Of a stretch of 64,000 bases of DNA, positions 36,066 to 61,667 are shown one piece after another. The notes beneath the pieces are model-generated. The model saw only the letters and a program-made list of their open reading frames with translations. It made no database searches and was not told the origin of the DNA. Position 1 is the first letter of the stretch. The number at the start of each line of letters is the position of its first letter. Source of the stretch: Pseudorhizobium banfieldiae. Its GTDB lineage: Bacteria > Pseudomonadota > Alphaproteobacteria > Rhizobiales > Rhizobiaceae. Both the position numbers and the translations under genes were made by a program. The stretch covers positions 248,001-312,000 of the forward strand of contig NZ_FO082821.1 of assembly GCF_000967425.1 (NCBI RefSeq), given 5' to 3'.

Positions 36066-37259
36066 ATGAGCGAAACAGAGCAGGATCTAGACATCGCCAT
36101 CGGGCACTACGCGGAACTTCTCGCGTCGAACCTGCATGCTCAGCGCGCTGCCCACTTCCCGCCGGATGCAAAGAAGGTGATGCGCACTTTGACCAGCGGC
36201 GAAGCTGCTGAACTCCTTGGCGTCGATCATACCTATCTTCGGAAGCTTCATCGAGAAGGAAAGATCGTTGACGTCGAGACGACGGCTGGAAGTCATCGCC
36301 GCTATACGCTCGACGATATCTGGGAAATCCGTCAAACTCTTGAAAGAAATGCAAAAAAGTCTGGAGCTTACGTTCCTGGGCGCCGTGACGGCGACGAGCT
36401 TCAAGTCGTTTCAGTGGTGAACTTCAAGGGCGGCAGCGGCAAAACGACGACGTCTGCTCACCTCGCTCAACGCTTGGCGCTTAAGGGGTACAGGGTTCTT
36501 GCGATCGATCTCGACCCTCAAGCATCCCTTTCAGCCCTTCATGGAATCCAGCCGGAACTCGACCTTATGGAGGGCGGAACCCTCTATGATGCCGTTCGCT
36601 ACGACGATCCGGTTCCGATCGGCGAAGTGATCCGCAAGACCTACATCCGCGGCCTTGATCTTATCCCGGGCAACCTTGAACTCATGGAGTTCGAGCACGA
36701 GACGCCTGCTGCTATCCAGCGAGGAGGAGCGAAGGCGTTTTTTGCGAGAGTTCATGATGCTCTCGATAGTGTTGAAGCAAACTACGACGTTGTTGTGATC
36801 GACTGCCCACCGCAGCTTGGTTTCTTGACGATGTCAGCCCTTTCAGCGTCCTCGGGTGTCCTCGTGACGGTTCACCCGCAGATGCTTGACCTCATGTCGA
36901 TGTCCCAATTCCTGCGAATGACTGCGGATCTCCTGGGAGTGATCAGGGATGCAGGCGCAAATCTGCGCTTTGATTGGCTGCGCTTTTTGCCAACGCGATA
37001 CAAAGTCGGCGATGCGCCACAAACCGAAGTCATCGCCTTCATTCGCGGGCTGTTTGGTAGGTCGGTTCTGACCAATCACATGGTTGAATCGACCGCAATT
37101 TCTGACGCCGGCTTGACCAAGCAAACACTCTACGAAGCTGACAAGAAGGACTTCACGCGTCAGACGTTTGATCGTGCGATCGAATCCATGAACGCAGTGA
37201 ACGATGAGATCGCTGAAATCATCCAGAACACATGGGGGCGGAATGGCAAGAAAGCCTAA
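36066..37259 (+). CDS. repA: plasmid partition ATPase RepA (module 1)
   Basis: A 397-residue ParA-type protein. An N-terminal helix-turn-helix (TSGEAAELLGVDHTYLRKL) is followed by the deviant Walker A KGGSGKTTTSAHLAQ near residue 120 and the ParA motifs AIDLDPQASLSALHG and VVIDCPPQLGFLTMSAL. It segregates the plasmid and represses the operon. It overlaps repB by 17 bases. Confidence 0.93.
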   Translation: MSETEQDLDIAIGHYAELLASNLHAQRAAHFPPDAKKVMRTLTSGEAAELLGVDHTYLRKLHREGKIVDVETTAGSHRRYTLDDIWEIRQTLERNAKKSGAYVPGRRDGDELQVVSVVNFKGGSGKTTTSAHLAQRLALKGYRVLAIDLDPQASLSALHGIQPELDLMEGGTLYDAVRYDDPVPIGEVIRKTYIRGLDLIPGNLELMEFEHETPAAIQRGGAKAFFARVHDALDSVEANYDVVVIDCPPQLGFLTMSALSASSGVLVTVHPQMLDLMSMSQFLRMTADLLGVIRDAGANLRFDWLRFLPTRYKVGDAPQTEVIAFIRGLFGRSVLTNHMVESTAISDAGLTKQTLYEADKKDFTRQTFDRAIESMNAVNDEIAEIIQNTWGRNGKKA

Positions 37260-38172
37260 ACTTGGCCTGCCACTGCAGACCCTTCGCAACGCTCCTGACG
37301 CTCTTGAAGGGCGCCGACTGCGTGGAGGTGTGTTTGAGATCGATCCGGCGCAGATTGTTACCGAAGGACGGTTGGATGACAGGCTTCAAATTGAAGTTGA
37401 GGGCCTGAAAAACTCTATATCCAAGAACGGTCAGCGTGTGCCTGTCTTGGTCCGCCCACTGGAAGGTGATCGCTACAACCTGATTTATGGCCGTAGACGC
37501 CTAGAAGCATGTCGCGAACTCGGTATCAAAGTTAGAGCCATCGTCACTGAGGTTGAGGGTGATCAAGCGCTTCGTGATCAGCTTCTCGAGAATCAAGAGC
37601 GTCGTGATCTGAGCTTTATTGAGCGTGCGCTTGTTGCGACGGCGCTTCTCGACGGTGATCATTTGGAAGGGGCTGAGCGTACAAATCGAGGTGTCGCCGA
37701 AGTCCTTAACCTCCACGAAGCTGGGGTATCACAACTCTTGAGTGTCGTTCGGACGGTCGGCGAGGAACTCATCCAGGCAATCGGTGCAGCTCCCGGGATT
37801 GGTCGCCCGAGATGGGAAGAGCTCAAAAAGGCTTTGGGTGCTTACGACGGTGATCGAGACCAACTGCAAGCCGTAGCTCATGCAGCCAAGTCCGAAAGTT
37901 CCGGCTCGGTCGATGAGGTTTCTGAGCGTGCGTTTCTCGCAGTGCTGGCAGCTGCGAAGAGCGCAGAGAAGAAAGCAAGCCCGTCTAGAAATGGCGTGCC
38001 TGCTTTGGCGATCCCCGGCGTCGGAGCGGCAACGGTCAAGACGGGTCGCCGAGGCAAGCAGCTTAAACTCGATCTGACTACCGATGAACCTGATTTTATC
38101 AGCTGGTTGGAGGGCAATGCCCCAAAGCTGATTACCGAGCTTCATGAGCGCTGGAAGCGTTCAGGAGACTGA
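37243..38172 (+). CDS. repB: plasmid partition protein RepB (module 1)
   Basis: A 309-residue ParB-family protein starting MARKPKLGLPLQTLR after a GGGGGCGGA site. It has the ParB core (NGQRVPVLVRPL, YNLIYGRRRLEACRELG, ENQERRDLSFIERA) and a helix-turn-helix (VAEVLNLHEAGVSQLLSVV). It binds centromere-like sites and RepA. I did not find a clear 16-bp parS palindrome nearby. Confidence 0.92.
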   Translation: MARKPKLGLPLQTLRNAPDALEGRRLRGGVFEIDPAQIVTEGRLDDRLQIEVEGLKNSISKNGQRVPVLVRPLEGDRYNLIYGRRRLEACRELGIKVRAIVTEVEGDQALRDQLLENQERRDLSFIERALVATALLDGDHLEGAERTNRGVAEVLNLHEAGVSQLLSVVRTVGEELIQAIGAAPGIGRPRWEELKKALGAYDGDRDQLQAVAHAAKSESSGSVDEVSERAFLAVLAAAKSAEKKASPSRNGVPALAIPGVGAATVKTGRRGKQLKLDLTTDEPDFISWLEGNAPKLITELHERWKRSGD

Positions 38173-38208
38173 GGAAGAGCAACCAACAAGAAGGAGGCAC
38201 GATACAGG

Positions 38209-38301
38209 CAAAAAAGAAAAAGGCCCCGAGAAGCTAGCTTCACGAGACCTTTGTAAGGTTTCGCACCGGGATCAGCCCGCTACAAAATCTCAGTTTTCGC
38301 A
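38209..38301 (-). ncRNA. antisense incompatibility RNA between repB and repC (module 1)
   Basis: On the minus strand, TTGCGG (38331-38336), a 17-base spacer and TACATT (38308-38313) make a good promoter, placing the start near 38301. About 50-80 bases on, a hairpin (38221-38250) is followed by a T-rich run. Two C-A mismatches on the plus strand become G-U pairs in the minus-strand RNA, which supports transcription on that strand. This matches the counter-transcribed RNA that limits RepC in repABC plasmids. Confidence 0.75.
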
Positions 38302-38374
38302 CTTCTGAATGTAGCGTTCTGGTCCCTACCCCGCAAGCGCAAAGCGATTCGCGGGCCGTAGAAATTTTGCCTTC

Positions 38375-39598
38375 GTGAACGTTTTCATGGAGTACACACC
38401 GATTTCGCCGTTTATGCGGCCGATCTCGCACGCCCATCTGCGCGTCATCGAGCGACCCGAGGCATCTGTTCCGGGCAGACCCGTCAACAAGTGGGAACTC
38501 CTGCGCGAGCTCTCCAAGGCGCAAGCGGCCTTTGGCGTGTCGGAACGTGACTTGACTGTTTTGCAGGGGCTCCTCAGCTTCTTTCCAGACGATGCACTTG
38601 GCGGGAACGCCGAGATGGTAGTCTTCCCCTCGAACAAGGCGATCTGTGAGCGCCTGAATGGCATGCCGTGCTCAACGATGCGTCGTCACCTCGCGCGTCT
38701 TGTCGAGGCTAGTTTGCTCCAGCGGCGCGATAGCCCCAATGGGAAGCGCTACGTCCGCAAGCACGGCGAAGAGCGCGTCGCCTTTGGCTTCGATCTTTCC
38801 CCGCTCTACTGCCAGTCCGAGGAGATCGCCCGGGCTGCAGAGGCTGTACGTGAGGCTGAGGAGCGCGTCAGGCGTCTGAGAGAGGTCGTAAGCCTCATGC
38901 GGCGTGATCTCGCGGCCCTCGCGGAGTTCGGAGAGGAGATGCAGCCAGGCCTACGCATCTGGAATCAGCTTCGCGACAAGGCTGTCCTTACAGCTCGCGC
39001 GCTTCGCCGCAAGCTTTCAACTGAGGACCTCGCGGCCTATCGAGCCGATCTTGAAGCACTCCTCGACCAGGCGCGCAACATCATTGATGGACCTGAAACA
39101 GAAGAAATGAACACCAATGATGCCCAGTCTGAGCGTCACCTTCATAATTCAAATAAAGAGTCTATAGATCTTGAACCTGCTTTAGAAAAAAGCGGGGCGG
39201 CGGCCGGCGTGCCAGACTTGAACACGGATGAGCCTGTTGCTGAGGTTGATGAACAGGACACAAGACTCCTGCCAAAGATCCCGCTGCACCTAGTGATCGC
39301 GGCATGTCCCTCGCTCAAGACCTTCTACCAAGGCGAAATCCGGCATTGGCATCAGCTTTTCGACGCGGCTTCCCATGTGCGGCCAGCCATGGGGATCAGT
39401 GCGTCTGCATGGGAAGAAGCGCAGCGATTCATGGGTCCGGAGCAAGCATCGATCGCTGTTGCTGCCATGCTTGAACGCTTTGAGGACATCAGATCGCCTG
39501 GTGGATACTTGCGAGCTCTGACTGCCAAAGCTGCGGAGGGTGAGTTTTCCTGTGGGCCGATGGTCATGGCGTTGATTGGGCGACGATCTGCAGCTTAA
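38375..39598 (+). CDS. repC: plasmid replication initiator RepC (module 1)
   Basis: A 407-residue RepC protein. The N-terminal domain has LSKAQAAFGVSERDLTVLQG, LLSFFPDD and the DNA-binding stretch CERLNGMPCSTMRRHLARLV. The C-terminus has the family end SPGGYLRALTAKAAEGEF. The start may be GTG 38375 or ATG 38387. It starts replication, with the origin expected inside the gene. An ISL3 element begins 13 bases after its stop. Confidence 0.92.
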   Translation: MNVFMEYTPISPFMRPISHAHLRVIERPEASVPGRPVNKWELLRELSKAQAAFGVSERDLTVLQGLLSFFPDDALGGNAEMVVFPSNKAICERLNGMPCSTMRRHLARLVEASLLQRRDSPNGKRYVRKHGEERVAFGFDLSPLYCQSEEIARAAEAVREAEERVRRLREVVSLMRRDLAALAEFGEEMQPGLRIWNQLRDKAVLTARALRRKLSTEDLAAYRADLEALLDQARNIIDGPETEEMNTNDAQSERHLHNSNKESIDLEPALEKSGAAAGVPDLNTDEPVAEVDEQDTRLLPKIPLHLVIAACPSLKTFYQGEIRHWHQLFDAASHVRPAMGISASAWEEAQRFMGPEQASIAVAAMLERFEDIRSPGGYLRALTAKAAEGEFSCGPMVMALIGRRSAA

Positions 39599-41865: not shown

Positions 41866-42753
41866 ATGAGTAAAATACACAACGGCCGATCGGCCGAACG
41901 CTCCTCCGTGCCCGGAACCAGGCTTCCGGCAAACCTTGAAGCTCTCGTCACCCTCGCATGTGACCGGGCTATTGACCCGACGCTAGTGCGATCTGCGGCA
42001 AGTGGCGATCTCGATGCCATAGAAGTAGTCGGCAGGACGCTCGCAAGCGAGGAGGGTCGTCTGCTTGAATCAGTCGTCACCACACTGGCACGTACCAACA
42101 CTCGCCAGGACGTGCTTACTGGCATGAAGCTGCCGGTGCTGAGGATTGCTGCGGAACTCGCCGAGCGCAACACACTCGATGCCTACAGGCGTTTGTCTGT
42201 CGATCCAGAAAGCCAAAGCAGCACCTCCTATCATCCGGACCTCGTGCTCGTCGACCGGGCGAGACGGAGTGCGATCATCGTTGACGTCAAACGATCGCTT
42301 GGCGGCTACAGCGGTGGTGGCAGCCTCGGCAAACTTCAGAAGCGAATGGAAGCGGCCGCTTGCGTGCTACCGGAAATTCTGTGGTGTCACCACCAGCGGC
42401 TTGCTGTCGAGTCAGTGGGAATAGCCATCATCGACGGAGCAAGAACATCTGCAGATATCGACGAAGGCCTCTGGTCGCTCTCACGTCTCGACGATCTTTT
42501 AGGGGTTAGCGGGGCTGGGAGCGCCGCCCAATCGGCTATCGAGGCCTTTCGCTCCATCTTCCGGGACCGCTGGCTGGCTGCAGCGCCTTCGACCGGAGAG
42601 AAAGCGCAGATCGCGGCAGGCCCAGAAAAGCCTCACCCTCCGCGTTCACTTGAAGAACAGCAGCCAAGGAGACGGGGTCGGCCCGCAAAGCCTCGGCCGT
42701 CAGCAGCGGTCAAGATAGGCTTCTTCCGCCCGGACGCAGAGCGCGTCCACTAG
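41866..42753 (+). CDS. PD-(D/E)XK nuclease-like protein (module A)
   Basis: A 295-residue soluble protein. The core has YHPDLVLVDRARRS and IIVDVKRSLGGY: P124-D125, 14 residues, then D140-V141-K142, the PD-(D/E)XK layout of restriction-type nucleases. The C-terminal tail is basic and proline-rich. The start at 41866 is chosen because the paralogue at 57933 begins at the same aligned point. The paralogue keeps the same spacing (PD, 14 residues, EVK). It is the first gene of a four-gene module with an AAA+ ATPase and a zinc protease. Cutting activity is inferred only. Confidence 0.7.
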   Translation: MSKIHNGRSAERSSVPGTRLPANLEALVTLACDRAIDPTLVRSAASGDLDAIEVVGRTLASEEGRLLESVVTTLARTNTRQDVLTGMKLPVLRIAAELAERNTLDAYRRLSVDPESQSSTSYHPDLVLVDRARRSAIIVDVKRSLGGYSGGGSLGKLQKRMEAAACVLPEILWCHHQRLAVESVGIAIIDGARTSADIDEGLWSLSRLDDLLGVSGAGSAAQSAIEAFRSIFRDRWLAAAPSTGEKAQIAAGPEKPHPPRSLEEQQPRRRGRPAKPRPSAAVKIGFFRPDAERVH

Positions 42754-42819
42754 TCCCTCTCAATCCCCCTTCTCGCCAATGGCGTCCGGACACTCTCCGG
42801 CGCATGGAGACCTATTGCC

Positions 42820-43323
42820 ATGTCATCCGATACATCACGACCGAATCCCATAGCCACGTCCGTTAGCCCCCCAGTGCAGCGAACAACGCATCCGCCCCGC
42901 AACAAGCCTGCGCCATCGTGGAGCACTCTCGTACGATCCCACCATCTGCCGGAGGATGAGAGTGCTGTCCTTGCCGCGTTGATCATCCGCCGTTGCAGAC
43001 GACTTGGCCGCACCGAAAGATCACTTCCTCTCCTGGTCCAGAGGACGCTGAGCGATTTATGCGCAGAAGGCGATCCGACGGCATGGCTGATCTGGCACTG
43101 GCTACAGGGCACTCCGGCATCCGGTACAGCCTACATTCCATTCGAAGAGCGTCGAGAGCGGCGCTGCCCTTCCGGCGGCAGACCCGTCCGCTGGGGGGAC
43201 CGGATCTGGCGGCATGGCCGTCCCTGGCGTCCCGGTAACCCGATCCTGCTGCGGCGCGACGAGCAACGTCGTCTCAAACTCTTGTCCCTGCTGCTGGAGG
43301 AGATCCAACATGCCTACCAGTGA
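42820..43323 (+). CDS. small helical protein of the nuclease/AAA+/protease module (A)
   Basis: A 167-residue protein with no known domain. The middle (IIRRCRRLGRTERSLPLLV, then LCAEGDPTAWLIWHWLQG) aligns with a protein in module B that has LCDQGDPTARVVRDWLEG, so it is a real conserved partner. The C-terminus is rich in Arg and Trp. It overlaps the ATPase start by 14 bases. It may be an adaptor linking nuclease and ATPase. Confidence 0.65.
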   Translation: MSSDTSRPNPIATSVSPPVQRTTHPPRNKPAPSWSTLVRSHHLPEDESAVLAALIIRRCRRLGRTERSLPLLVQRTLSDLCAEGDPTAWLIWHWLQGTPASGTAYIPFEERRERRCPSGGRPVRWGDRIWRHGRPWRPGNPILLRRDEQRRLKLLSLLLEEIQHAYQ

Positions 43324-45226
43324 TCGTCTCAAGACCCACCTGCTCCGCCGCCTCCGTCGACACTCGCTTCGTATGCTCTTCCGGCGCGCCTGCTCCGCAG
43401 ACCTGCTGATGCCGGAGGATATCACGGTAGGAACGGTCAGCGTCCGAAGGTATCGGGTGGGGCCGCTCGCCGAAATTGCCACTGGCCCCACAGGCAGCGA
43501 CAACGTGCGCCGTCGCCTTGCACGCGTCCATACCTCCTCGGTCCAGATGCCCGTCGATCCCCACGCGGAGGTGGTCAAGGCGCTTATCGAGGAAGGCTTC
43601 GATGTAGGGACCGCAAATGAGTTTGCCGCCGAGGGGACGGCACCACCAAAGACAGACGGGAAACAGAAAGGGCCGAAGTTGCGAGCCCCGTCAGCGCCTC
43701 TCCTCGCTCGGCCGCTGCTCGACAATCTGAAGCAAGCGGCCTTGCCCCTGCCGGTCATGGACGTTGCGATCGTGATCCTGCTCGCCGAAGCACTGCGTGC
43801 GCCCGGATGCTCTGGAGCCATGCTGTTCACGGCCCTCAAGTCGTCCGCGCCACTGATCTGCCTGCGCCTTCCAACGCGCGAGGCAGAGGCGGTGGTCAAC
43901 CAGCTGTTGCAGCAAGGGGCTATCCTGCCTCACCCAATCCATCTGGTTGACGGACTCCATCATTCGTTCAATGATCGCTGGTCGCACGACGATCAGTCGG
44001 CTTCGGCCAGAACTGTTCTGTCCTACCCGCTCACCCAGCTATTGGCCGTCAGCGCTGAGCGGCTGCGCCGAACTCTGGCAAAGGCAACACGCGCAGGTGC
44101 ACCCATCCTGGTGCTGACAGAAACCGAATCTCTTTGGCCACGTCGTGTCGTGAGCAGCGCCGATATCATCCTTGATGCGCCGCGGCTGGACAACCATATG
44201 CTCGCCGAAATCATCGAGACCTGCCTTGGTATTCCGATCGAGAGCACACTTCATGGGCTGGCCACGCGGACGATCAAAACCGGGAACCTCGGGCTTGATG
44301 ACCTCGCGCTGTCCATCAGACCGGATCGCCACCTCGATACGGTCCTTGACCGGCTCGAACAGCTGTCGCGCGATAACATCACGATCGACGGCGATGATGA
44401 GACGGAAGAAGAGGGCAACGCCGGGACCAGGACGGAGGCAAAGGATGAGCCTGAGGGCAAGACTGAGACGACCTCTCGATCGACTTCTTCGGGCCGATCA
44501 AGGGGCAAAGACGGAAAGTACCAGGTTGAGCTGATCCTCCCGCAGAGAATACGAAAGAAGCGGAGCTCCCAACAACCTTTAATCCTGGAGACGTTGGCGG
44601 GCTACGGCGAGGCGCGGCAGTGGGCGCTGGAGCTGAAAGCTGACCTGAAGCTGTGGATGCGGAAGAAGATCCACTGGAGTGACATGAGCACGAAACTGCT
44701 CCTATCGGGACCGCCGGGAACCGGGAAGACTACCTTCGCCCGGGCTCTCTGCAATTCACTCGAGATCCCACTGATTGCTACGTCCGTGGCGGAATGGCTT
44801 GAGCCCGGGTACCTGGGCGACGTGCTTCGAAGGATGAGCTCCGTCTTCGAGGCTGCGCAGGCTCGGCAGCCCGTGATCATGCTGATCGATGAGATCGACG
44901 GAATTGGCCGACGCGATGCTGGAGGAGGCCGCTCCTATGATGATTATTGGATTTCCGTGATCAACCGATTGCTTGAGCTTCTGGACGGGGCGCTGAAGAG
45001 CGAGGGTATTATCATCATCGGAGCAACCAATCGGCCCGATGCCATCGATCCTGCCCTACGACGCTCGGGAAGACTTGAGACACACATCCCGATACAGCCG
45101 CCAGACCTCGATGCCCTGGAAGGCATCCTGGCGCACCACCTGGGACCGGACCTCAGACGCGTAATTGGGAGCCTCGTACATGCTCCGGCTTATCAGGCAA
45201 GCCCGCAGGAGGCGGCCCATGAATAG
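43310..45226 (+). CDS. AAA+ ATPase related to the FtsH ATPase domain (module A)
   Basis: A 638-residue protein. The first 450 residues look like a decayed AAA+ domain and linker, ending in LGLDDLALSIRPDRHLD and an acidic, Ser-rich stretch. The active AAA+ domain has Walker A GPPGTGKTTFARAL (from 467), Walker B MLIDEID (524-530), GATNRPDAIDPALRRSGR with arginine fingers, and then stops before the helical lid. The lid and a zinc protease are encoded by the next gene, which overlaps by eight bases. Its function would be to unfold or remodel a target. Confidence 0.85.
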   Translation: MPTSDRLKTHLLRRLRRHSLRMLFRRACSADLLMPEDITVGTVSVRRYRVGPLAEIATGPTGSDNVRRRLARVHTSSVQMPVDPHAEVVKALIEEGFDVGTANEFAAEGTAPPKTDGKQKGPKLRAPSAPLLARPLLDNLKQAALPLPVMDVAIVILLAEALRAPGCSGAMLFTALKSSAPLICLRLPTREAEAVVNQLLQQGAILPHPIHLVDGLHHSFNDRWSHDDQSASARTVLSYPLTQLLAVSAERLRRTLAKATRAGAPILVLTETESLWPRRVVSSADIILDAPRLDNHMLAEIIETCLGIPIESTLHGLATRTIKTGNLGLDDLALSIRPDRHLDTVLDRLEQLSRDNITIDGDDETEEEGNAGTRTEAKDEPEGKTETTSRSTSSGRSRGKDGKYQVELILPQRIRKKRSSQQPLILETLAGYGEARQWALELKADLKLWMRKKIHWSDMSTKLLLSGPPGTGKTTFARALCNSLEIPLIATSVAEWLEPGYLGDVLRRMSSVFEAAQARQPVIMLIDEIDGIGRRDAGGGRSYDDYWISVINRLLELLDGALKSEGIIIIGATNRPDAIDPALRRSGRLETHIPIQPPDLDALEGILAHHLGPDLRRVIGSLVHAPAYQASPQEAAHE

Positions 45227-46007
45227 TACGCAAACGAACACTCGGAACAGAACATCCTCAGTGATCACCCCCTCGCCGCTTCGCCGCTTGGCGTTGGCGG
45301 CGCAGGGGATGACGGGTGCCGATATCGAACGGATCATTCGAGAAGCACGACGGAAGGCGCGTCGGGCGCGACGCCCCCTCGCCTACAGCGACGTCCAGTC
45401 TGCAATCGCCGGTTCAGCGGAGCGCCCCTCGCCCGAGCTGAAATGGCGGATCTCGGTCCACGAGGCAGGACACGCTCTGATGTGGTCGCTCACGGGTGTC
45501 GGCACGGTGGTGTCCATGACAACCGGCCAAGCTCGTGGTGGCGACACACGCGTTGAGATCTCCACCGAAGCCACCCAGACCGAAGCCGGGATGATGTCGC
45601 TGATCGCCTGCATCCTGGGTGGGCGTGCGGCGGAGATGACTGTCCTGGGCGAGACCATGATCGGTAGCGGCGGATCCGAGCGCAGCGACCTCGCATTGGC
45701 AACGGCCCATGCGACGCACCTGGAGACTATGCTTGGATGCTCATCATCCAAGCCACTGCTCTACATGCCACCAGAGCGCATCTCGCATGACCTCAGATTC
45801 GATCCGAATCTAGCGACACGCGTTCATCAGCGGCTGGAGACGGCAATGGGCATAGCTCTCGATGCGATGCGCGAGCACAACCACGCGCTGTTGGAGCTTG
45901 CGCGAGCTTTGGATGCAGAGACTTACCTTGAGGGTAATCGCGTCTCAGAATTGCTGACCCGAGCCACGCGTCCGGCCGAACCGTCAGTACTCGGTAGCCC
46001 GAACTAG
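45219..46007 (+). CDS. split FtsH-type M41 metallopeptidase with AAA+ lid (module A)
   Basis: A 262-residue protein. Residues about 20-60 (LRRLALAAQGMTGADIERII, then REARRKARRARRPLAYSDVQ) match the AAA+ lid of FtsH. HEAGH (81-85) gives two zinc ligands and the catalytic Glu; D157 in GGSERSDLALAT is the expected third ligand. There is no membrane segment. Together with the preceding ATPase it makes an FtsH-like enzyme cut in two inside the AAA+ domain. A strong AGGAGG site precedes the ATG. Confidence 0.85.
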   Translation: MNSTQTNTRNRTSSVITPSPLRRLALAAQGMTGADIERIIREARRKARRARRPLAYSDVQSAIAGSAERPSPELKWRISVHEAGHALMWSLTGVGTVVSMTTGQARGGDTRVEISTEATQTEAGMMSLIACILGGRAAEMTVLGETMIGSGGSERSDLALATAHATHLETMLGCSSSKPLLYMPPERISHDLRFDPNLATRVHQRLETAMGIALDAMREHNHALLELARALDAETYLEGNRVSELLTRATRPAEPSVLGSPN

Positions 46008-51675: not shown

Positions 51676-51850
51676 GAGAGAACCTGCAAGCGCGTTCCAG
51701 AGTGCTGCCCGTCGCGTTCCAAGCAGTCAGGTACGGTCCTGGAAAACGTCGGGCTCCCGCCCTTCCCTCTTCGATCTGATCCAATCTCTCGATTCAGAAT
51801 TCGACAAATTCGATTCTGGGAGAAACGCCGTTTGCAGGAGGTGGTCATGA
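51665..51850 (+). CDS. small overlapping protein containing repeat copy D
   Basis: A 61-residue frame starting at an ATG with a strong GGGAGG site inside the end of the preceding gene, and ending with a 4-base overlap (ATGA) with the next. Near its end is SLDSEFDKFDS, encoded by the dispersed repeat. The double coupling suggests real translation, but the short length keeps confidence low. Confidence 0.4.
   Translation: MTTEREPASAFQSAARRVPSSQVRSWKTSGSRPSLFDLIQSLDSEFDKFDSGRNAVCRRWS
51789..51835 (+). repeat. dispersed repeat, copy D
   Basis: GATTCAGAATTCGACAAATT, CGATTCTGGGAGAAACGCCG and TTTGC. It lies within the 61-residue frame and just upstream of the gene starting at 51847. Confidence 0.55.
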
Positions 51851-52209
51851 GCACGCGTGGCGGCGGGCGAGACAGGCAACGCGGACGTCAGCGAGCCTAT
51901 CGGGAGCGTCTCAAGAGGGAGCGCCGCCCCGGTCGTGACGACGTCGCCCGCATCGCGCTCCACTGGCTGATCGTGAAGACAGCAAACCTGGCAGTAAGGA
52001 CGAGCAACCCTGCACGCATGCATGTCGTGGAGGATGCTTTACTCGATGGACTGGTGGCGCAAGGTTTCAACGCGAGGGCTTCTGAGGAGGTGCTGGATGA
52101 GCTAATTGACAAATACGTCGATGGCGGCTGGAACTTCCGGCGCAAGCTCCATCTCCAGGAGGAGCCTCCTGCCTCGGCACGCATCCTGCTGGACCGGGAT
52201 GCCGACTGA
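51847..52209 (+). CDS. small basic-N-terminus protein of unknown function
   Basis: A 120-residue protein with a CAGGAGG site. The first 35 residues are very Arg-rich (GRDRQRGRQRAYRERLKRER), suggesting nucleic-acid binding; the rest is helical (VVEDALLDGLVAQGFN, EEVLDELIDKYVDGG). No family is recognised. It ends the overlapping trio. Confidence 0.6.
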   Translation: MSTRGGGRDRQRGRQRAYRERLKRERRPGRDDVARIALHWLIVKTANLAVRTSNPARMHVVEDALLDGLVAQGFNARASEEVLDELIDKYVDGGWNFRRKLHLQEEPPASARILLDRDAD

Positions 52210-52724: not shown

Positions 52725-53522
52725 TTGTCACATAAACCTGCTGTCAGTAAGTGGGGTAGAGATGGTGGGATGAAGAATCCAGCCACCAGCTACAAGCGCC
52801 ACCGTTTTCCGCAGCAGATTATTGCCCATGCAGTCTGGTTGTACTTTCGGTTCCCGCTGAGCCTGCGCCTGGTCGAGGAATTGCTGCTGGAGCGTGGCAT
52901 CGTCGTTTCGTATGAAACGATCCGCCGATGGGGGCGGAAATTCGGACCGGCCTACGCATAGCAAATCCGTCGCCGGTGGCCATCACACCGCGCCGTCTGG
53001 CATCTGGACGAGGTGGTGGTTTCCATCGCTGACCGTAACACTGGCTTTGGCGTGCAGTTGACCAAGACGGTTATGTTCTCGATGAGATTGTTCAAGGCCG
53101 GCGCGATACGAAAGCCGCGAGGCGACTGCTGATCAGGCTACTAAAGAAAGCAGGCATGCCGCCCAAGCGGATCGTCACCGACAAGCTCCGTTCGTATGGC
53201 GCGGCCAAGCGTGACGTTATGCCAGCTGTCGAGCACCGGTCCCACAAGGGGCTCAACAATCGAGCGGAAAATTCTCATCTGCCGCTCCGAAAACGAGAAC
53301 GCACGATGCAGGGTTTCCGATCAACTGGTAGCTTGCAGCGGTTCATATCGATCTTCTCAGCGCTCCGAAATCTCTTCGTCGCCCCACGTCACAAACGATC
53401 CGCCCTGACCACACACATTCACCGCATCCGCGCAATAGCGCATTGGAAAGCCGTGACGGGCGCGATTGTCTGATCTCAGAGAGCCGCAGGCGTATTTCGA
53501 TTACCCCTCGATAACGTGACAA
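52725..53522 (+). mobile_element. decayed IS6-family element
   Basis: About 800 bp with short inverted ends (TTGTCACATAAA at 52725 and TTGTCACGTTAT as reverse complement of 53511-53522). It holds a broken transposase. It abuts the IS3 OrfA remnant on the left and the AAA+ gene remnant on the right, so it marks a deletion or rearrangement. Confidence 0.7.
52770..53473 (+). pseudogene. IS6-family transposase, disrupted
   Basis: Fragments in more than one frame: MKNPATSYKRHRFPQQIIAH to GRKFGPAYA then a TAG stop at 52959, HLDEVVVSIADRN with a frameshift soon after, and from 53156 MPPKRIVTDKLRSYGAAKRD to the end. The order and spacing match a 230-240 residue IS6 transposase. It is inactive. Confidence 0.8.
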
Positions 53523-53630
53523 TTCCGGCCCGACCGTAGCAGCGCCGGGTCGATGTTGTCCGGGAGGTTAGAGGTGGCTCGGTTTGTCTGAACAGTTTCG
53601 GGCGTTTTGCTAAGTGGATTTCCGCCTCGA

Positions 53631-54461
53631 TTATGCCGCCACCATCATTGGTGCCAGCGCGTTGAAGTAGGCCTGATCCGGCGTCTGCCGGTCAAGGGAT
53701 GAATGTGGGCGTCTGGCGTTGTAAAAGGTCAGATATCGGCCAATGCCGACGCGGGCCTCGGACACAGTCTTGTAGGCATGGAGGTAGACTTCCTCATATT
53801 TGATCGAACGCCAGAGCCGCTCGACGAAGACATTGTCCCGCCACGCGCCCTTGCCATCCATCGAGATGGCGATCTCCGCCTTCTTCAGCACGGCAGTGAA
53901 GTCGATGGAGGTGAACTGCGATCCCTGATCCGTATTGAAGATATCGGGCTTGCCATAACGAGCAAGTGCCTCTTCGACGGCTTCGATGCAGAAGGCTGCT
54001 TCCATTGTGATCGACAGCCGCCATGACAGGACCTTCCGGCTGAACCAGTCGACGACGGCGCAGAGATAGACGAAGCCCCGCGCCATCGGAACATATGTCA
54101 GGTCCATCGCCCAGACCTGGTTGGGTCTCGTGACCGCCAGCTTGCGCAGAAGATAGGGGTAGATTTTGTGCCCAGGCGCTGGTTTCGAGGTGTTTGGGCG
54201 GCGATAGATCGCCTCAATGCCCATCTTCTTCATCAGCGTGGCGACGTGCAGCCGCCCAGCTTCCAGCCCTTCTCCTCTTAAGAGCCCTTGCAACATCCGA
54301 CTTCCCGCGAACGGGTAGTCGAGATGCAGTTCATCGATCCGCCGCATCAGGGCAAGGTCGCCATCAGGCGCCGGACGTGGAGAATAGTAGACGCTGCCAC
54401 GGCTGAAGCCGAGAAGCTTCGCCTGGCGCACCACGGATAGCTTGTGCTCGCGGACGATCAT
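53631..54461 (-). CDS. IS3-family transposase OrfB
   Basis: A 276-residue integrase-type transposase: HTH_21-like start (LSVVRQAKLLGFSRGSVYYS), then the DDE core WAMDLTYVPMARGF, FNTDQGSQFTS and, with the Glu, DNVFVERLWRSIKYEEVY. It overlaps OrfA by four bases (ATGA). Intact. Confidence 0.92.
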   Translation of the reverse strand: MIVREHKLSVVRQAKLLGFSRGSVYYSPRPAPDGDLALMRRIDELHLDYPFAGSRMLQGLLRGEGLEAGRLHVATLMKKMGIEAIYRRPNTSKPAPGHKIYPYLLRKLAVTRPNQVWAMDLTYVPMARGFVYLCAVVDWFSRKVLSWRLSITMEAAFCIEAVEEALARYGKPDIFNTDQGSQFTSIDFTAVLKKAEIAISMDGKGAWRDNVFVERLWRSIKYEEVYLHAYKTVSEARVGIGRYLTFYNARRPHSSLDRQTPDQAYFNALAPMMVAA

Positions 54462-54769
54462 TTCTTTCCGCCCAGCAATCCCGCCTTGCCGAGCGCACCG
54501 GATAAAAAATCATTCTCCAGTGTCAGTTCGCCGATCTTGGCGTGCAGCGTTTTGACGTCGACGGTCGGACCCGCTGGTTCCGTCCTCGTTCCATCGCCGA
54601 AAACGCCTGTCGCCCCCTCAAGAAGCTGGTCTTTCCACTGTTTGATCTGGTTGGCGTGCACGTCGAACTGCTGGGACAATTCCACCAGCGTCTGCTCACC
54701 TCGAATGGCGGCGAGCGCCACCTTTGCCTTGAAAGCCGGGCTGTGGTTCCGGCGGGGTCGTCTCGTCAT
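54458..54769 (-). CDS. IS3-family transposase OrfA
   Basis: A 103-residue protein starting MTRRPRRNHSPAFKAKVALA with a helix-turn-helix (VELSQQFDVHANQIKQWK) and a leucine-zipper-like end (LHAKIGELTLENDFLSGALG). It is the first frame of the IS3 element; the fused OrfAB protein would arise by frameshift. Confidence 0.88.
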   Translation of the reverse strand: MTRRPRRNHSPAFKAKVALAAIRGEQTLVELSQQFDVHANQIKQWKDQLLEGATGVFGDGTRTEPAGPTVDVKTLHAKIGELTLENDFLSGALGKAGLLGGKK

Positions 54770-56571
54770 GGTCTCTCCTGTTCCCGGCATCTAAGCCGAA
54801 GTCAGGCAGAAATTCCACTTATCCTAGCTGTGCAGATTTCCCGAGCCACCTCTGTTAGTGGCTCCGACGACGATGACACCTTCCGTCTTCGCCGCACCGT
54901 CGAGGAGTTCGAGAAGCCGGTTGATCAGCGAGGTCCAGTAGTCATCATAGTGCTTCCCGGTGTTTCTGCCGCGGCTGCCGATATTGTCGAGCTCGTCGAT
55001 GAAGAGGATGCAGGGTGCCCTCCTCGTCGCCGCCGCGAAGGTCGCGGTGATGCACTTCAGTACATCGCCGAGATAGCCCGGCTCGAGCCATGTCGCGACC
55101 GAGGTGGCGACCAGCGGCACCTGGAGCGAATTGCAGAGTGCTCGCGCAAAGGTCGTCTTGCCCGTGCCAGGCGGTCCGGAGAGTAGAAGTCTTGTGCTCA
55201 TCTCCGACCAGTCGAGCTGACCCTCCCGCCAGAGGTTCAGGTCTTCCTTTAGATCGACAGCCCACTGCCGCGCTTCGCCGTACCCGGTGAGCTTGTCGAC
55301 GCGTAGCGGCCGCCGGGGTGGCCGGGGCTTGAGGCGCTTTCCTGTCCCCTGCCCTTCCGCTTCCATGACCTCCAGCGGTTCCGGCTCGATCACCTCACCC
55401 GCCAGGGCACCTGCCTTCCCTTTACCCGACGCGCCTGATCTGCCTGTGGAGGATAGTCCTTCGGTCCAGCTTTCCTCGCCGTCCTCTTCCTTGACGCTGC
55501 CGCGGTTTCTCTCCGCAAGCTCGCCAAGCAGGCGGACCACCTCCGCAACATGTCTCCCCGGTCGAACTGCCAGCGCCAGATCATCCAGCCCAAGTCCCAT
55601 TGGGTCGAACTTCATGCCCTCCATGACCTTCAAAGACCGCTTTGGCGCAATGCCAAGGCAGACCAGCAGGAGTTCGGCGATCAGTTCCCGGTCGATCGGC
55701 GGGCCTACCAGAGCCAGATCAGGTGTCCGCGCCACCAGCGGAAGTGCCGTGCCCGGTGCCTCGTCGGCAATCACCAGTGGCCGGTCTGCCGCAAGCAGGA
55801 CATCCGCGATGTAGCGCCGCAGGGACAGCTCGTTCGCCTTGCGCGCCTCCTGCCCCGACAGCGTCGCGATCTTCCTGTGCGGGCGCGATCGCCACTTCTC
55901 GTTATAGCGACCGGAAATCCCTGGACCCTTCATCACGTCGGATAGGACGCATCGCGACGGGATGATCAGGCTCTCTTCCAACTGCATGCCGAAGCGCCGC
56001 TCGAACTGACCGATCGGAACGCTGATGGAGAGGCAGGGTGACGAGCCGCGCAGAACCTTCAGAAGCGCCTGAACGTCATCGACGCTGTTCCCAACAGCTC
56101 GAGCCACAAGCAGTGCCACGGCCACCTGAACCGGATTAGGCCTCGGCAGATGTTCGCGAAGCAGCGCCAGCAGCCGGATCGTTGCCAGCCGGCGTTCTCG
56201 ATCTGCCAGTCCATCCTCCACCGACGCTCCTGCGGTAGAAGGCTCGGCATCACAGATGTCCTGCAGCGCCCGGACGACAGGGTGTTCGGTCTGATGGCTG
56301 AAGTCATACATCTCCGTCTCGTCCGGAGGCGCGATCGGTCTTGCCCGCTGGAGTGCCCTGGCGACCGCTGCTCGATCCTTGGCCGGATCGCCGGTGAGGA
56401 GAGCCATGGCAGCGTCGGTGATGCTCCAGGCGGTTCCGCTGTCCTCGCTGTCATCGACGAACCGTGACGTGAGGAGCTCCACCACGGCGGCGCTCTCGTA
56501 GAGGTCCAGCGCGGCCCGGCGACGGATACGCCTGAGGAGATAGCGGCTGATGCGGTCGGTGACGGTTTCCA

Positions 56572-56952
56572 TTACATCCCCTCCCCGTCCCTGGTCGCCG
56601 AACCGACGATATGGAGACGGCCGTTCCCCTCCAGCCAGTCACGGACCACCCGTGCAGTGGGATCACCCTGGTCGCAGAGTTCGAGCAGCCACTTGCGCAT
56701 CTGCGGCGGCAGCGACGTGAGCGAACGGCCTTTGCGCCGGGCAAAGCGGATGGCGGTGCCGATGACCGTCTCGGCGAACTCCTGCTGCGCCTCGGAGGAC
56801 GCCCCACCCGACGGTGTTGCGATGGCCAGAGCGATTGCTTGCGCAGCCGGCGCAGGTGCTGAGGAAGGACCGGCTTGCTTCCTACGAAACGAATTCGGTT
56901 CGGAGCCGGTGGCTCCACGGCGGGGAAATGCGATGATGTTCGATGTCGTCAC
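56572..56952 (-). CDS. small helical partner protein (module B)
   Basis: A 126-residue protein starting at GTG with an AAGGGAG site. The C-terminal half (IRFARRKGRSLTSLPPQMRK, then LCDQGDPTARVVRDWLEG) aligns with the 167-residue protein of module A. Its stop overlaps the ATPase start (TAATG). It is intact, although its ATPase partner is broken. Confidence 0.65.
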   Translation of the reverse strand: MTTSNIIAFPRRGATGSEPNSFRRKQAGPSSAPAPAAQAIALAIATPSGGASSEAQQEFAETVIGTAIRFARRKGRSLTSLPPQMRKWLLELCDQGDPTARVVRDWLEGNGRLHIVGSATRDGEGM

Positions 56953-57039: not shown

Positions 57040-57933
57040 CTAACCGGTCCTGGCAATGGGGATGCGGGCAAACCCGAAGCGGACGATCCCGTCGGGAGGT
57101 GGATCGGTGTCTGATCCAGCCGTGGCAGGCGTATCATTTGCCTGGGTCGGCGAGGCAGCGGCTGCGGACACTCCCCTGCCCTCAATGCCACCACTCACGC
57201 TCTGGAGCGCCTGCTTCCAGTTCTGCTCGATCCGGTCGCGGAACGCCTGTTGGAGAGACTTCATCATCTCGCCTGCACCCGTAACTTCCAGCAGGTGATC
57301 GAGATGCGAAAGCGGCCAGACGCCACCCTCGATGTCGGTCCGCTGGTTCTCCGCATTGAGGATGACGACGCGGACGTCCTCCGCAACTAGCCGGCGGTGC
57401 TCCTTGTAGAGGAGGTCTGGCACGATCAGCGACGCCGCCAGCATGCGGGTCTTCAGATCAGTGATGCGCGAGGTCTCGTAGGAATTGAGGCTCCGCTTGA
57501 CTTCCACGACATGCGCTACATGCGTTTTGCGGTTGAGGACGATGAGGTCGGGCGCATAGCTCTTGCGTCCGCTGCAGTCGGCGTCGAGCGTCAGCGACCG
57601 GTATTGAGCGGGTCGGTTCATCTCCACCAGCTCGACGGCAGCCTTGCTCACCGGCAGCCGGATATTCTGCGTCAGCACCACGAGGTCGGGATTGAACCCG
57701 GTGAGCATGGCGATGCCGCGCTCGAGCAGCCGCCCCTCATGCGATGGAACGGATCGTACGATGGTCCCGACAGTATCGAGGCTGGTGTTCAGCCCAGTCG
57801 CGATCGCGTCGACAGAGAAGACGGCATGCGCGAGCTCCTCAACGAGCGCATCGAAGCGAGGCCTCACCTCATCAGTGTCGATGCGGTGGGTATAGGTGGG
57901 CGTGTCTGCCTGCGGCAGCTTGGTGATGGTCAT
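57040..57933 (-). CDS. PD-(D/E)XK nuclease-like protein (module B)
   Basis: A 297-residue paralogue of the module A protein. PD in YAPDLIVLNRKTH and EVK in VVEVKRSLNSYET are separated by the same 14 residues. Other shared parts are SHEGRLLERGIAMLTG, HRRLVAEDVRVVILNAE and GGVWPLSHLDHLLEVTGAGE. The ATG has an AGGAG site. It is first in module B, as in A. Nuclease activity is inferred from the motif only. Confidence 0.7.
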   Translation of the reverse strand: MTITKLPQADTPTYTHRIDTDEVRPRFDALVEELAHAVFSVDAIATGLNTSLDTVGTIVRSVPSHEGRLLERGIAMLTGFNPDLVVLTQNIRLPVSKAAVELVEMNRPAQYRSLTLDADCSGRKSYAPDLIVLNRKTHVAHVVEVKRSLNSYETSRITDLKTRMLAASLIVPDLLYKEHRRLVAEDVRVVILNAENQRTDIEGGVWPLSHLDHLLEVTGAGEMMKSLQQAFRDRIEQNWKQALQSVSGGIEGRGVSAAAASPTQANDTPATAGSDTDPPPDGIVRFGFARIPIARTG

Positions 57934-59015: not shown

Positions 59016-59239
59016 GTTCTCTGCCTCCTGGGAAATATGGCGCGTAGCCTAAGCCGTGCGTAGCCACTTCTCTTCTGCTATGTTCGCAGAATTGATTGCT
59101 ACTGCGACTACCGGCCTGTGCGCTTGCCAGGCTTTACCCTCTGTTAACGAAAAACTTCTTGCTGAGAATCACAGAATCGGGCCTTAATCCCGGTTATGAA
59201 TGGATTTGCTCCAAAAAAGCGTTATTCCGGATGCTGAGA

Positions 59240-60445
59240 ATGAACCTGATGCCCGAGCACGGATTCGAGATGGACTTCGACGAAGAAATCCTTCGGCAAG
59301 GTGAACTGATTTCGGACAAGCTCAATTTGCTCCGCCTTGAACAGTATCCGCCGAATGCGGAGAAAGGTCTACGTCTGTTCACGTCAGCTGAAGTCGCGGA
59401 CTTTCTAGGTGTTACGCAGAACCATATAAAGAAGCTTCATCTCGAGGGGAAGGGGCCATCCCCCGAAGTCTCTTCCTCTGGGCGGCGGTCTTATACCGCC
59501 CAGCAGATGATGGAGTTGCGGCATTATCTCGACAAACATGGCCGCTCTGATTTCAAGCGTTATGTGCCTCACCGGCGGCATGGTGAAGCGTTGCAGGTTG
59601 TCTCTGTGGTCAATTTCAAAGGGGGCTCTGGTAAGACAACCACAGCGGCGCATCTTGCGCAGTATCTAGCGCTCACCGGTCATCGGGTTCTGGCGATCGA
59701 TCTCGACCCCCAAGCCTCCCTTACGTCGCTACATGGCATTCAACCCGAGCTTGACAAGAACCCGTCGCTCTATGAGGCCCTACGCTATGATGATCGGAGG
59801 ATCTCAATCAAGGAGGTCATACGATCAACCAATTTTCCCAACCTTGATATAGTTCCGGCGAATCTTGAACTTCAAGAGTACGAATATGAGACGCCCTTGG
59901 CGGCCTCGAACAGGAGCTCGCCAGAAGGCAGGTTGTTCTTCACACGGATATCGTCGGCACTCAATGAGGTCGATGACCGCTATGATGTCGTTGTCATCGA
60001 TTGTCCGCCTCAGCTTGGCTATCTCACGCTAACATCGCTGACCGCCTCGACTTCGGTGTTGATCACCATTCACCCGCAGATGCTAGATGTTATGTCAATG
60101 AGCCAGTTTTTGCTCATGCTGGGCGGCATCTTACAGTCAATTAAGGGTGCGGGAGCTGCGGTCAAGTTGAAATGGTTTCGGTACTTGGTAACCCGATACG
60201 AGCCGACAGATGTCCCTCAGCAGCAGATGGTCGGTTTCCTTCAGGCGATGTTTAGCAAGAATATGCTGAAGAACCAGATGTTGAAGTCTACTGCGATAGC
60301 AGATGCTGGGATAACCAAGCAGACAGTTTATGAAATCGAGAAGTCACAATTCACCCGTTCGACTTACGAGCGAGCTTTGGAGAGCCTTAACGCCGTGAAT
60401 GGCGAAGTCATGTCACTGATTCATAAAGCGTGGGGCCGCAAATGA
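59240..60445 (+). CDS. repA: plasmid partition ATPase RepA (module 2)
   Basis: A 401-residue ParA-type protein of the repABC kind: N-terminal HTH (TSAEVADFLGVTQNHIKKLH), Walker A FKGGSGKTTTAAHLAQYLAL, then AIDLDPQASLTSLHG and VVIDCPPQLGYLTLTSL. The start may be any of several methionines between 59231 and 59270. It is clearly diverged from module 1 RepA, as expected for a different incompatibility group. Confidence 0.92.
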   Translation: MNLMPEHGFEMDFDEEILRQGELISDKLNLLRLEQYPPNAEKGLRLFTSAEVADFLGVTQNHIKKLHLEGKGPSPEVSSSGRRSYTAQQMMELRHYLDKHGRSDFKRYVPHRRHGEALQVVSVVNFKGGSGKTTTAAHLAQYLALTGHRVLAIDLDPQASLTSLHGIQPELDKNPSLYEALRYDDRRISIKEVIRSTNFPNLDIVPANLELQEYEYETPLAASNRSSPEGRLFFTRISSALNEVDDRYDVVVIDCPPQLGYLTLTSLTASTSVLITIHPQMLDVMSMSQFLLMLGGILQSIKGAGAAVKLKWFRYLVTRYEPTDVPQQQMVGFLQAMFSKNMLKNQMLKSTAIADAGITKQTVYEIEKSQFTRSTYERALESLNAVNGEVMSLIHKAWGRK

Positions 60446-60458
60446 GCTTTTGCACGGC

Positions 60459-60472
60459 TGTCAAAAATGACA
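60459..60472 (+). promoter_or_regulatory. short inverted repeat between repA and repB (module 2)
   Basis: TGTCA, AAAA, TGACA. It lies in the 72-base gap before repB. It could be a RepB binding site, but the arms are only 5 bp. Confidence 0.3.
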
Positions 60473-60517
60473 TTTTCTCCATTTACTTCAAAGACCTAAT
60501 GTTTGCAGGAGGTGGTG

Positions 60518-61513
60518 ATGGCTAGAAAAAATCTACTGGCAAGCGTGACCGCTACTCTCGGCGGAGAGGTTGCGCCGTCGGAAGCACGTTCTGACTATAC
60601 GAAGCGCGGGGCATCGCGATCCATGCTCCAGTCATTGGATGAGATGGCTGAAGCGAGCCTGCGCCTGATTGAGGGTGAGACCGTCGTTTCTATCGATCCC
60701 GGTCTTCTTGAGGGATCGTTCCTCGCAGATCGAATTGGTGAGGAAGCTGAAGAGTTCCACGCTCTCAAAGTTGCGATTGAGACAAGCGGTCAATCCACGC
60801 CCATCTTAGTTCGGCCACATCCTAATGACGCCGGCCGCTATCAGATCATCTATGGTCATCGCCGAGCCAAGGCTGCCCGCGAGCTAGGTATTCAGGTTCG
60901 CGCGGTCGTGAAACAGATGGCCGATATCGAGCATATTATTGCTCAGGGTCAGGAGAACACCGCTCGAGCAGACTTAACCTTCATTGAGAAAGCTCTCTTT
61001 GCGAAGAAACTGCTTTCACGAGGTATGAAAAAAGACGTGGCGAAGGCGGCACTGACCGTCGACGACACAGTTCTTTCTAGGATGCTTTCGGTCGTCGAGA
61101 TTGTACCCGAGCCGGTTATGGAAGCTGTTGGAGCAGGGAAAGGTATCGGCCGGGACCGGTGGGAGGAGCTGAAGAAGTTGGTCGCGCTTCCTGCTGGAGC
61201 CGCCCGAGCTATTGAGTTCGTGGCCACTGACGAGTTCAAATGTGCGCAGGGGGGAGGAGAGGCCTTTAATCTGTTGCTCGCTCACCTGAAGTCGTCTGGA
61301 CGGAAGCCGAGGAAACTAAAGGCGGCGCGAGCGGTCCAAGCTTGGTCTCATCCTTCCAATTCGATCATCGTGACTCCTAAATCCAAACCGAACGGCTTCG
61401 TACTAGATCTGTCAGAGAAGGACGCGAACCCTTTTGGCGAGTGGATCACGCAGAACCTGGACGGCCTCTACGAGGCTTTCAGGGAGTCTAGGAAAAGTTC
61501 AACAGGAGACTAA
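60518..61513 (+). CDS. repB: plasmid partition protein RepB (module 2)
   Basis: A 331-residue ParB-family protein starting MARKNLLASVTATLGGE after a CAGGAGG site. ParB core parts: GQSTPILVRPHPND, YQIIYGHRRAKAARELGIQV and QENTARADLTFIEKA. A helix-turn-helix follows. It differs strongly from module 1 RepB. Confidence 0.92.
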   Translation: MARKNLLASVTATLGGEVAPSEARSDYTKRGASRSMLQSLDEMAEASLRLIEGETVVSIDPGLLEGSFLADRIGEEAEEFHALKVAIETSGQSTPILVRPHPNDAGRYQIIYGHRRAKAARELGIQVRAVVKQMADIEHIIAQGQENTARADLTFIEKALFAKKLLSRGMKKDVAKAALTVDDTVLSRMLSVVEIVPEPVMEAVGAGKGIGRDRWEELKKLVALPAGAARAIEFVATDEFKCAQGGGEAFNLLLAHLKSSGRKPRKLKAARAVQAWSHPSNSIIVTPKSKPNGFVLDLSEKDANPFGEWITQNLDGLYEAFRESRKSSTGD

Positions 61514-61518
61514 AACCG

Positions 61519-61574: not shown

Positions 61575-61667
61575 AAGTTGAGAATCGCACTTCCTCGAAT
61601 CACAGTCAAGAGTCTTGGCGCCGTTTTGGTGAGCGGATTTCTTTTGCCCAACTAAAGGTGAAAGACA

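Follow-up and report, generated by a model that had tools for sequence, protein, structure and literature searches.

Introduction

FtsH and its relatives AFG3L2 and Yme1 join an AAA+ core, a lid and an M41 zinc peptidase in one chain. Among AAA+ systems that cut DNA, McrBC is a further point of comparison, and McrB is a GTPase without a protease. A different pairing, of an AAA ATPase with a subtilisin-like serine protease, is found in IetAS on pTiC58 and SgiAT on SGI1, and SgiAT helps to maintain SGI1 (PMC5006074). The subject of this study is a module of four genes in a stretch of 64,000 nucleotides of Pseudorhizobium banfieldiae (contig NZ_FO082821.1, positions 248,001 to 312,000, called the window from here on). 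The genes run in the order nuclease-like protein (N), small partner (S), AAA+ ATPase (A) and M41 peptidase (P), an order proposed by a first-pass annotation of this DNA and borne out by our gene calls and profile matches.

The module resembles FtsH, AFG3L2 and Yme1 in that AAA core, lid and M41 peptidase align end to end, and in having HExxH, an aspartate as third zinc ligand and an aromatic pore loop. However, the FtsH series of core, lid and peptidase is found in A and P jointly and in no single chain of the module. Its enzyme consists of two chains cut in the lid, with another N-domain and no N-terminal hydrophobic anchor, and it scores far under the curated NCBIfam cut-off for FtsH of 600 bits, which none of A (117.2), P (56.7) and a fused relative (163.7) reaches. 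With IetAS and SgiAT it shares an AAA+ ATPase and a protease on a plasmid or integrative island, and the core of A matches IetA models. It is not a member of that group, because the protease class differs (zinc M41 against subtilisin-like serine protease) and A, whose match is confined to the AAA core, scores 67.1 bits on the IetA-type model, where 510 is the cut-off. The module also adds a putative nuclease, S and two further proteins, U and D. We infer that IetAS/SgiAT is its nearest functional precedent, as a functional analogue. From McrBC it differs in that its AAA+ protein belongs to the FtsH branch and in that the N profile had no match among the sequences of solved structures. Three plasmid loci, on Methylorubrum pCMU01, Bosea pB32-2 and Paracoccus p305818 (L011, L018 and L019), have the same AAA-lid-M41 order, but there the domains are fused in one chain, the partners are others and N was not detected.

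We find that N-S-A-P is a real, conserved and uncharacterised module whose order recurs in many named species, far beyond chance. It contains a new variant of FtsH-type proteolysis, in a module of which we found no description among the openly licensed papers listed, as judged by titles and the openings of abstracts; the terms tRNA-Gln, FtsH and protease are absent from PMC11476347.

The split ATPase and peptidase

The four genes of the first module copy, and the overlap that marks the cut, are as follows.

41866..42753, + strand: N, predicted PD-(D/E)XK nuclease, 295 amino acids; frame open from 41797; E63, E68, D125, D140-x-K142
42820..43323, + strand: S, small partner, 167 amino acids; best-kept part around GDPTAxxxxxWL
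43310..45226, + strand: A, AAA+ ATPase, 638 amino acids; N-domain, then FtsH-type AAA core and lid helix 1
45219..46007, + strand: P, 262 amino acids; remaining AAA lid helices and M41 zinc peptidase (HEAGH, D157)
45219..45226, + strand: overlap of the A and P genes, 8 nucleotides, the cut site of the AAA+ lid

A starts at an ATG at 43310 behind GGAGGAG and overlaps S by 14 nucleotides, and P starts at an ATG at 45219 behind AGGAGG. Pfam finds AAA in A (E = 3.1e-35) and Peptidase_M41 in P (E = 9.1e-10), where AAA_lid_3 also appears at E = 4.8e-5 (23.3 bits, under the cut-off of 27.2). Positions 151-345 of the NCBIfam FtsH_fam model are covered by A and positions 356-527 by P, and because of this the two can be read as consecutive parts of one FtsH, cut within the AAA+ domain as the first-pass annotation had claimed. 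Judged by sequence, A and P together are one FtsH-like unfoldase-protease. The exact site of the cut had to be corrected. The remaining lid helices and the HEAGH peptidase do continue in P, as had been proposed, but A does not end before the lid, since helix 1 (ALEGILAHHLG) is still encoded by A and helix 2 onward (LRRLALAAQGMTGADIERI...) by P.

Natural fusions allow the cut to be placed on a model. Four Aurantimonas/Aureimonas loci encode A and P in one chain of 764-901 amino acids, and the cleanest of these proteins (L094:4488-6983, 832 amino acids) was taken as the reference for the cut site. Window A aligns to its residues 16-524 and P to 542-723. An AlphaFold2 model of this protein (mean predicted local distance difference test score, pLDDT, of 79.7; predicted template modelling score, pTM, of 0.45) has a helix at 503-524, a loop that includes the low-confidence residues 530-533, and then helices at 538-548 and 554-570, a layout that places the predicted cut between lid helices 1 and 2. 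A fold comparison with the Protein Data Bank (PDB) gives matches of this model to FtsH, AFG3L2 and Yme1 (best E = 2.4e-23), and the fused relative matches FtsH of the PDB by sequence as well, over residues 365-698. In these fusions the alignment to FtsH runs unbroken through AAA, lid and M41, and the cut site lies in a modelled inter-helix loop; neither speaks against the ATPase-lid interface predicted for A and P. An AAA+ domain naturally cut in its lid, with the missing helices coming from the protease subunit, offers a natural case in which to study the role of the lid in coupling ATP hydrolysis to the attached protease. Some tandem AAA proteins (p97, CDC48, NVL and Rix7) align from residues 29-36 to 500-530 of the fused-relative model, at a root-mean-square deviation of 17-20 Å, and these model alignments hint that the N-domain of A could be an AAA+ domain without a P-loop.

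The motifs expected of such an enzyme are well kept. Walker A (GPPGTGKT), Walker B (DE), sensor (ATN) and RSGR are all invariant in eight aligned A proteins, and the pore-loop motif is YLG in all but two, which have FLG and YLH. H81, E82, G84, H85 and D157 are invariant in all ten aligned P proteins, with residue 83 variable, which agrees with the earlier assignment of a HEAGH peptidase with D157 as third zinc ligand. Across 90 split rows, counted with loose patterns and with decayed copies included, the arginine-finger motif is the most frequent (89 rows), followed by HExGH (88), Walker B (82), Walker A (80) and sensor 1 (73).

Membrane anchors had been said to be absent. By hydropathy neither A nor P has an N-terminal hydrophobic segment; A does have one 19-residue hydrophobic stretch, its strongest, at residues 144-162 (mean Kyte-Doolittle value 2.08), and 17 of 108 rows have some 19-residue window at 1.8 or above. 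As the stretch in A is not N-terminal, the lack of an anchor in A-P is likely, short of proof, and the enzyme is most likely soluble.

The junction of the two genes is regular. In 73 split pairs, scored with the ATG closest to the A stop, an in-frame ATG overlaps that stop by 4 nucleotides in 54 and by 8 in 11, and the relative frames of A and P are of two kinds (57 and 16 pairs). These overlaps and the two frames favour translational coupling over programmed frameshifting. The split is old. On a quick tree of 108 A+P rows with several long branches, the fused or split state changes 3 times (shuffle mean 17; none of 500 shuffles as low). One split followed by two re-fusions, with fused outgroups, is the most economical reading, short of proof; two further Aurantimonadaceae loci, L031 and L034, are split.

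One locus goes a step further. In Rhizobium sp. TH2 (L017, 4827-7482) A itself lies in two overlapping genes, for the N-domain and the AAA core, giving an enzyme of three chains.

The putative nuclease and the library searches

The naming of N as a PD-(D/E)XK protein drew support from its structure model. E63, E68, D125 and K142 are invariant in 79 aligned N rows and D140 nearly so. In the model E63 and E68 lie on a helix (49-75), D125 just ahead of a strand (126-130) and D140-x-K142 at the close of the next (135-142). This is the PD-(D/E)XK catalytic arrangement of D ... (D/E)xK on adjacent strands with E in the preceding helix, and the fold predicted for N is of this type. The leading PDB fold matches of the model are nuclease entries, nearly all of which we take to be of the PD-(D/E)XK type.

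Sequence libraries have little to say about most of the module. We found 194 homologues of N at E<=0.001, with no Pfam domain among the 120 listed. Pfam gave no match for N itself and for S only matches under the curated cut-off, and a U profile had one chance-level match among solved-structure sequences. In PADLOC 2.0.0, an anti-phage library dating from 2023, no family matched N, S or P, and A matched through its AAA core only (best IetA, E = 5.5e-20).

Conservation of the module

A scan of genome contigs confirmed 111 relatives of N, and 80 named loci were kept, on which the locus counts below are based; in the scripted counts genes were picked from open reading frames. As these loci were ascertained through N, the direction from N to P is the ascertained one. 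A and P come after N in all 77 loci whose contigs reach far enough, and S was detected in 74 of these. By layout, 70 of the 80 have N-S-A-P with A and P split, four have N and S with A-P fused, one has N with A-P fused and no S, two have N-A-P without a detected S, and three are cut by the contig end.

The reverse direction was taken from M41 genes. A split M41 gene was defined by E<1e-60 and an open frame of less than 500 amino acids, and N was sought within 6 kilobases (kb) upstream on the same strand. Among the matches listed, 51 split genes divide into 40 with N upstream, three at contig ends and eight without, so that 40 of the 48 away from contig ends have it, as do all eight long-frame (fused) M41 genes. 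This neighbourhood survey supports the earlier expectation that the genes travel together. The eight split genes without N include a fragment and a gene whose N is divergent (E = 6e-4); two others have a second AAA protein right before A (L119 9097-10635 and L120 3526-5079; 512 and 517 amino acids), which is possibly an alternative partner in place of N.

The unit is usually larger than four genes. Of the 80 loci, 72 have U (about 400 amino acids) and 74 have D. For the 247 genomes of the Rhizobiaceae-type family, as grouped by the search tool, the counts are 47 with U, 49 with N and 37 with both (chance expectation about 9). The four genes are thus conserved as first described, but as part of a unit to which U and D usually belong. 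A third small protein, dn1, recurs in 20 loci, less often than U and D.

The distribution of N is patchy: the 49 genomes, out of 247, are accompanied by a count of 34 genera out of the 106 sampled from the family. Yet for N, S, U and D, the last two scanned with one protein each, Pfam gave no match that passed the cut-off. Elsewhere N is rare; an order-wide draw showed it in 3 of 297 genomes, namely the window's own, one congener and a weak match (E = 1.7e-11). Among the 80 named loci, L032 and L075 carry titles of Devosia metagenome-assembled genomes. In plasmid records P matched in 15 and N in 10, every N record being also a P record, and a viral collection held one N relative. NT-25 carries the same module.

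Two further families recur near it. X316 (for example L098 12163-13113) occurs in 21 loci and usually lies between P and D; Y499 (for example L059 14969-16468) occurs in 17 and usually lies between D and the integrase. Neither has a Pfam match, and X316 has a weak NCBIfam match only.

Mobile setting

The first-pass annotation had placed the module on a plasmid, which is true of the window but not specific to it: the module is wide on chromosomal contigs and islands. Its carriers are tRNA-targeting integrative elements and some repABC plasmids. RepA/B/C adjoin it only in the window (both copies), on NT-25 plasmids 2 and 3 and in Rhizobium TCK, and in none of the 80 named genome loci do they lie within the fetched stretch. 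A repABC-linked plasmid system was therefore rejected as a general rule. The families that recur around the module are those of two tyrosine integrases and a serine recombinase, of HNH, Mrr and type I restriction-modification (R-M) proteins, of HipA and of two unknown groups. One of the three recombinase families lies in the fetched stretch of 47 of the 80 named loci, and a restriction-type neighbour (a relative of HNH, Mrr, HsdM or HsdR) in that of 34.

ARAGORN, run on 60 loci, found a tRNA at the recombinase end in 26: Gln(CTG) in 7, Gln(TTG) in 5, Ser(CGA) in 5 and Met(CAT) in 9, the last at contig ends. No attachment (att) repeats were found inside these 26 loci of 16 kb, and the elements are thus longer than 16 kb. 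In a whole-genome search all six tRNA-Gln(CTG) cases showed a 20-nucleotide repeat of the 3' end of the tRNA at a distance of 27.9 to 56.5 kb, preceded by TGA every time, and a reversed control pattern had no match. L096 and L098 among the six have identical A+P rows and equal spacing, so about five are independent. The same search for tRNA-Ser(CGA) found no second repeat nearby in four of four cases.

Five tRNA-Gln elements (L141-L152) form a Rhizobiaceae family of 28-57 kb. Their far end, TGA-GAATCCAGGTTCCCCAGCCA, is conserved, and their cargo, a large share of which is defence-like, is interchangeable.

Five of the six elements could be followed over their full length. The order is integrase, (D), (X316), P, A, S, N, U, HNH and then variable cargo up to the far repeat; in two of the five some module genes were overlooked by the gene picker and are known from other locus tables. 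At E<=1e-10, 70 cargo genes of the five match 169 PADLOC families. As a control, 120 genes were taken from nine 20-kb stretches chosen arbitrarily in these genomes, and they match 13. The comparison counts families and not genes, and related helicases match several models at once. The first 25 of the 169 include BrxC, PglX, PglZ, BrxHI, type I R-M and ZorD- and DrmD-like families. Between them, then, the islands bearing the module hold BREX-type, restriction and other defence-like genes. This richness is not universal, as the longest element (56.5 kb) has many metabolic-looking genes.

The module has changed its carrier many times. Among 50 rows of the A+P tree with a recombinase label (I1 21, SR 20, I2 9), the type changes at least 17 times, which indicates that the module moved among element types repeatedly, though less than at random. 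Integrase-1 matches were found in 41 of the 247 genomes.

Possible roles

The mobile and partly defence-rich surroundings lead us to suggest conflict between mobile elements or phage defence as the most likely job of the module, with a probability of about 0.44. The first-pass annotation had also proposed defence or interference; the surroundings fit that proposal, but the function is inferred from them and maintenance of the element is a live rival. If the module does act in this way, A, with its N-domain and a core carrying the YLG pore loop, would form a ring, and P would dock on it by completing the lid, placing the zinc protease beneath the pore. S, perhaps with the N-domain of A, would pass substrates to A-P, N as a putative nuclease would cut DNA, and U may be a DNA-binding or regulatory part, the DNA binding being our impression. 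The target could be the nucleoprotein of an incoming phage or rival element, where the protease might strip or degrade bound protein, or restrain N until needed, and N would cleave the DNA. Since part of the ATPase lid lies in P, neither motor nor protease would be active before assembly, which would give the system a built-in control point. Such a system would join unfolding, proteolysis and DNA cutting in one operon.

Several observations weigh against a role in conflict or defence. Eight of the 48 split M41 genes (among the matches listed) have no nearby N, and for 46 of the 80 named loci the fetched stretch is free of all four restriction-type families. PADLOC, NCBIfam and Pfam hold no above-cut-off model for N, S or the one U and one D protein scanned. 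The functional evidence consists of association, because N, S, U and D have no library model and P has no PADLOC match. In all five tRNA-Gln elements the module is integrase-proximal and outside the variable cargo, a place where maintenance genes often sit. Finally, the recombinase type is clustered on the tree beyond chance, with 17 changes against a shuffle mean of 22.2 (3 of 500 as low).

A more specific form of the conflict and defence proposal can be outlined, which we put forward as doubtful. The module could represent a mobile immune system of a class not described before, with a two-chain AAA+ protease acting as the gate to DNA cleavage. Each ATP site of the A ring would receive lid helices from P. 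Motor, proteolysis and access to N would then start only on assembly at foreign nucleoprotein marked via U and S, and the system would move between tRNA-integrated defence islands and Rhizobiaceae repABC plasmids.

Maintenance of the element, through addiction, stability or incompatibility, is the live rival, and taken by itself we hold it to be somewhat unlikely. Like IetAS/SgiAT, the module would then have one component that is toxic unless the ATPase-protease restrains or removes it, and cells that lose the element would die. The niches are alike, beside repABC on rhizobial plasmids and on integrative islands, and ietAS is located beside repABC. The integrase-proximal position in five of five elements and a recombinase type partly inherited with the module also suit this idea, as does the help that SgiAT gives in maintaining SGI1 (PMC5006074). 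It would help to explain the persistence of these islands. However, repABC adjacency is confined to a few plasmids and absent from the fetched stretches of all 80 named loci, six genes are many for a toxin-antitoxin pair, and Integrase-1 loci without the module exist. Broken copies also persist (the second copy in the window with N, S and part of A but no P, and a lone N at L124), with which a freely toxic N is hardly compatible.

A part in the life cycle of the element itself is improbable in our view. Here the module would control or dismantle a recombinase-DNA complex, as ClpX does for MuA, or process DNA in excision or transfer. A nuclease with an unfoldase would suit nucleoprotein remodelling, the module is integrase-proximal, the recombinase type clusters on its tree beyond chance, and D adjoins Integrase 1 even where N-S-A-P is missing (L153). 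Against this, the recombinase beside the module may be a tyrosine integrase of either of two types or a serine recombinase, and some plasmid loci have no integrase; at least 17 switches are counted in 50 rows. N, S, A and P are also missing from the fetched stretch of four Integrase-1 loci (L153, L154, L155 and L157, the last a short one). The switching argues against a role tied to one integrase, while partly joint inheritance still has room. As a dedicated part of one integrase the module was rejected as a general rule, on account of those four loci and the recombinase changes.

Still less probable, and by a good way, is a host enzyme of protein quality control or DNA-protein crosslink repair that mobile elements acquired. 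A protease with a nuclease would fit crosslink repair, and the genome has other fused AAA-M41 homologues without a hydrophobic N-terminus (L003 and L004), but the patchy presence in 49 of 247 family genomes, the several copies in some genomes and the recombinases and restriction-type genes often nearby do not suit a host function. That a single FtsH gene was broken by a frameshift or sequencing error, as consecutive FtsH parts in different frames might suggest, was rejected as having next to no chance, given that the split recurs in 90 of the 96 rows that make up the related clade, that both relative frames open to the two genes are used (57 and 16 of 73 pairs), and that NT-25 is the same with 99.6% (P) and 100% (N and A) identity.

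Further copies and related loci

The remaining features of the window are given below.

36066..39598, + strand: repABC operon, upstream of copy 1
51832..52209, + strand: D, small associated protein (RRPxRDDxAR...FRRKxHL)
53510..53578, - strand: remnant of second-copy A past the insertion (tblastn, 24 residues, E = 8.9e-4)
53631..54790, - strand: IS3-type transposase open reading frames within second-copy A
54824..56572, - strand: second-copy A, interrupted after the sensor-1 region
56572..56952, - strand: second-copy S
57040..57933, - strand: second-copy N, with VEVK in place of VDVK
59096..62882, + strand: second repABC operon, divergent from copy 2

The D of the window is separated from P by IS256- and IS5-type transposase genes and three unknown open reading frames; the names of the IS256, IS5 and IS3 transposases were taken from the NT-25 annotation. 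Up to 54855 the DNA of copy 2 shares 89.5% identity with a module on an NT-25 plasmid. Past the remnant of its A, P was not found. The plasmid contig thus has two repABC operons, each with one copy of the module.

In all, the window's own genome has four N genes: copy 1, copy 2, a chromosomal set (L022) and the lone N (L124). The chromosomal set (G000:C1:376000-392000) is N-A-P-dn1-D, with no S detected, and lies close to a broken Integrase 1 (G000:C1:392087-394030). Upstream of it are DUF4007, an aminotransferase-V protein and a 1089-residue protein, genes that we take to resemble those of sulfur-modification defence islands. L124 (G000:C1:3065000-3080000) holds N with an Integrase 2 remnant and transposase-like open reading frames, and S, A and P are missing. 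The same chromosome encodes two long fused AAA-M41 proteins (L003 and L004, 672 and 673 amino acids) without a hydrophobic N-terminus, which are probably soluble FtsH relatives; L005 and L006 have one.

Two of the plasmid-borne fused genes also stand next to nuclease genes. On Methylorubrum pCMU01 (L011, 6684-9817) the fused AAA-M41 gene overlaps a gene annotated as a 3'-5' exonuclease, possibly another protease-nuclease pairing, with TIR-domain proteins and metallophosphoesterases nearby. On Paracoccus p305818 (L019, 5191-8990) the fused AAA-M41 gene (891 amino acids) comes immediately after a gene of the GIY-YIG nuclease family.

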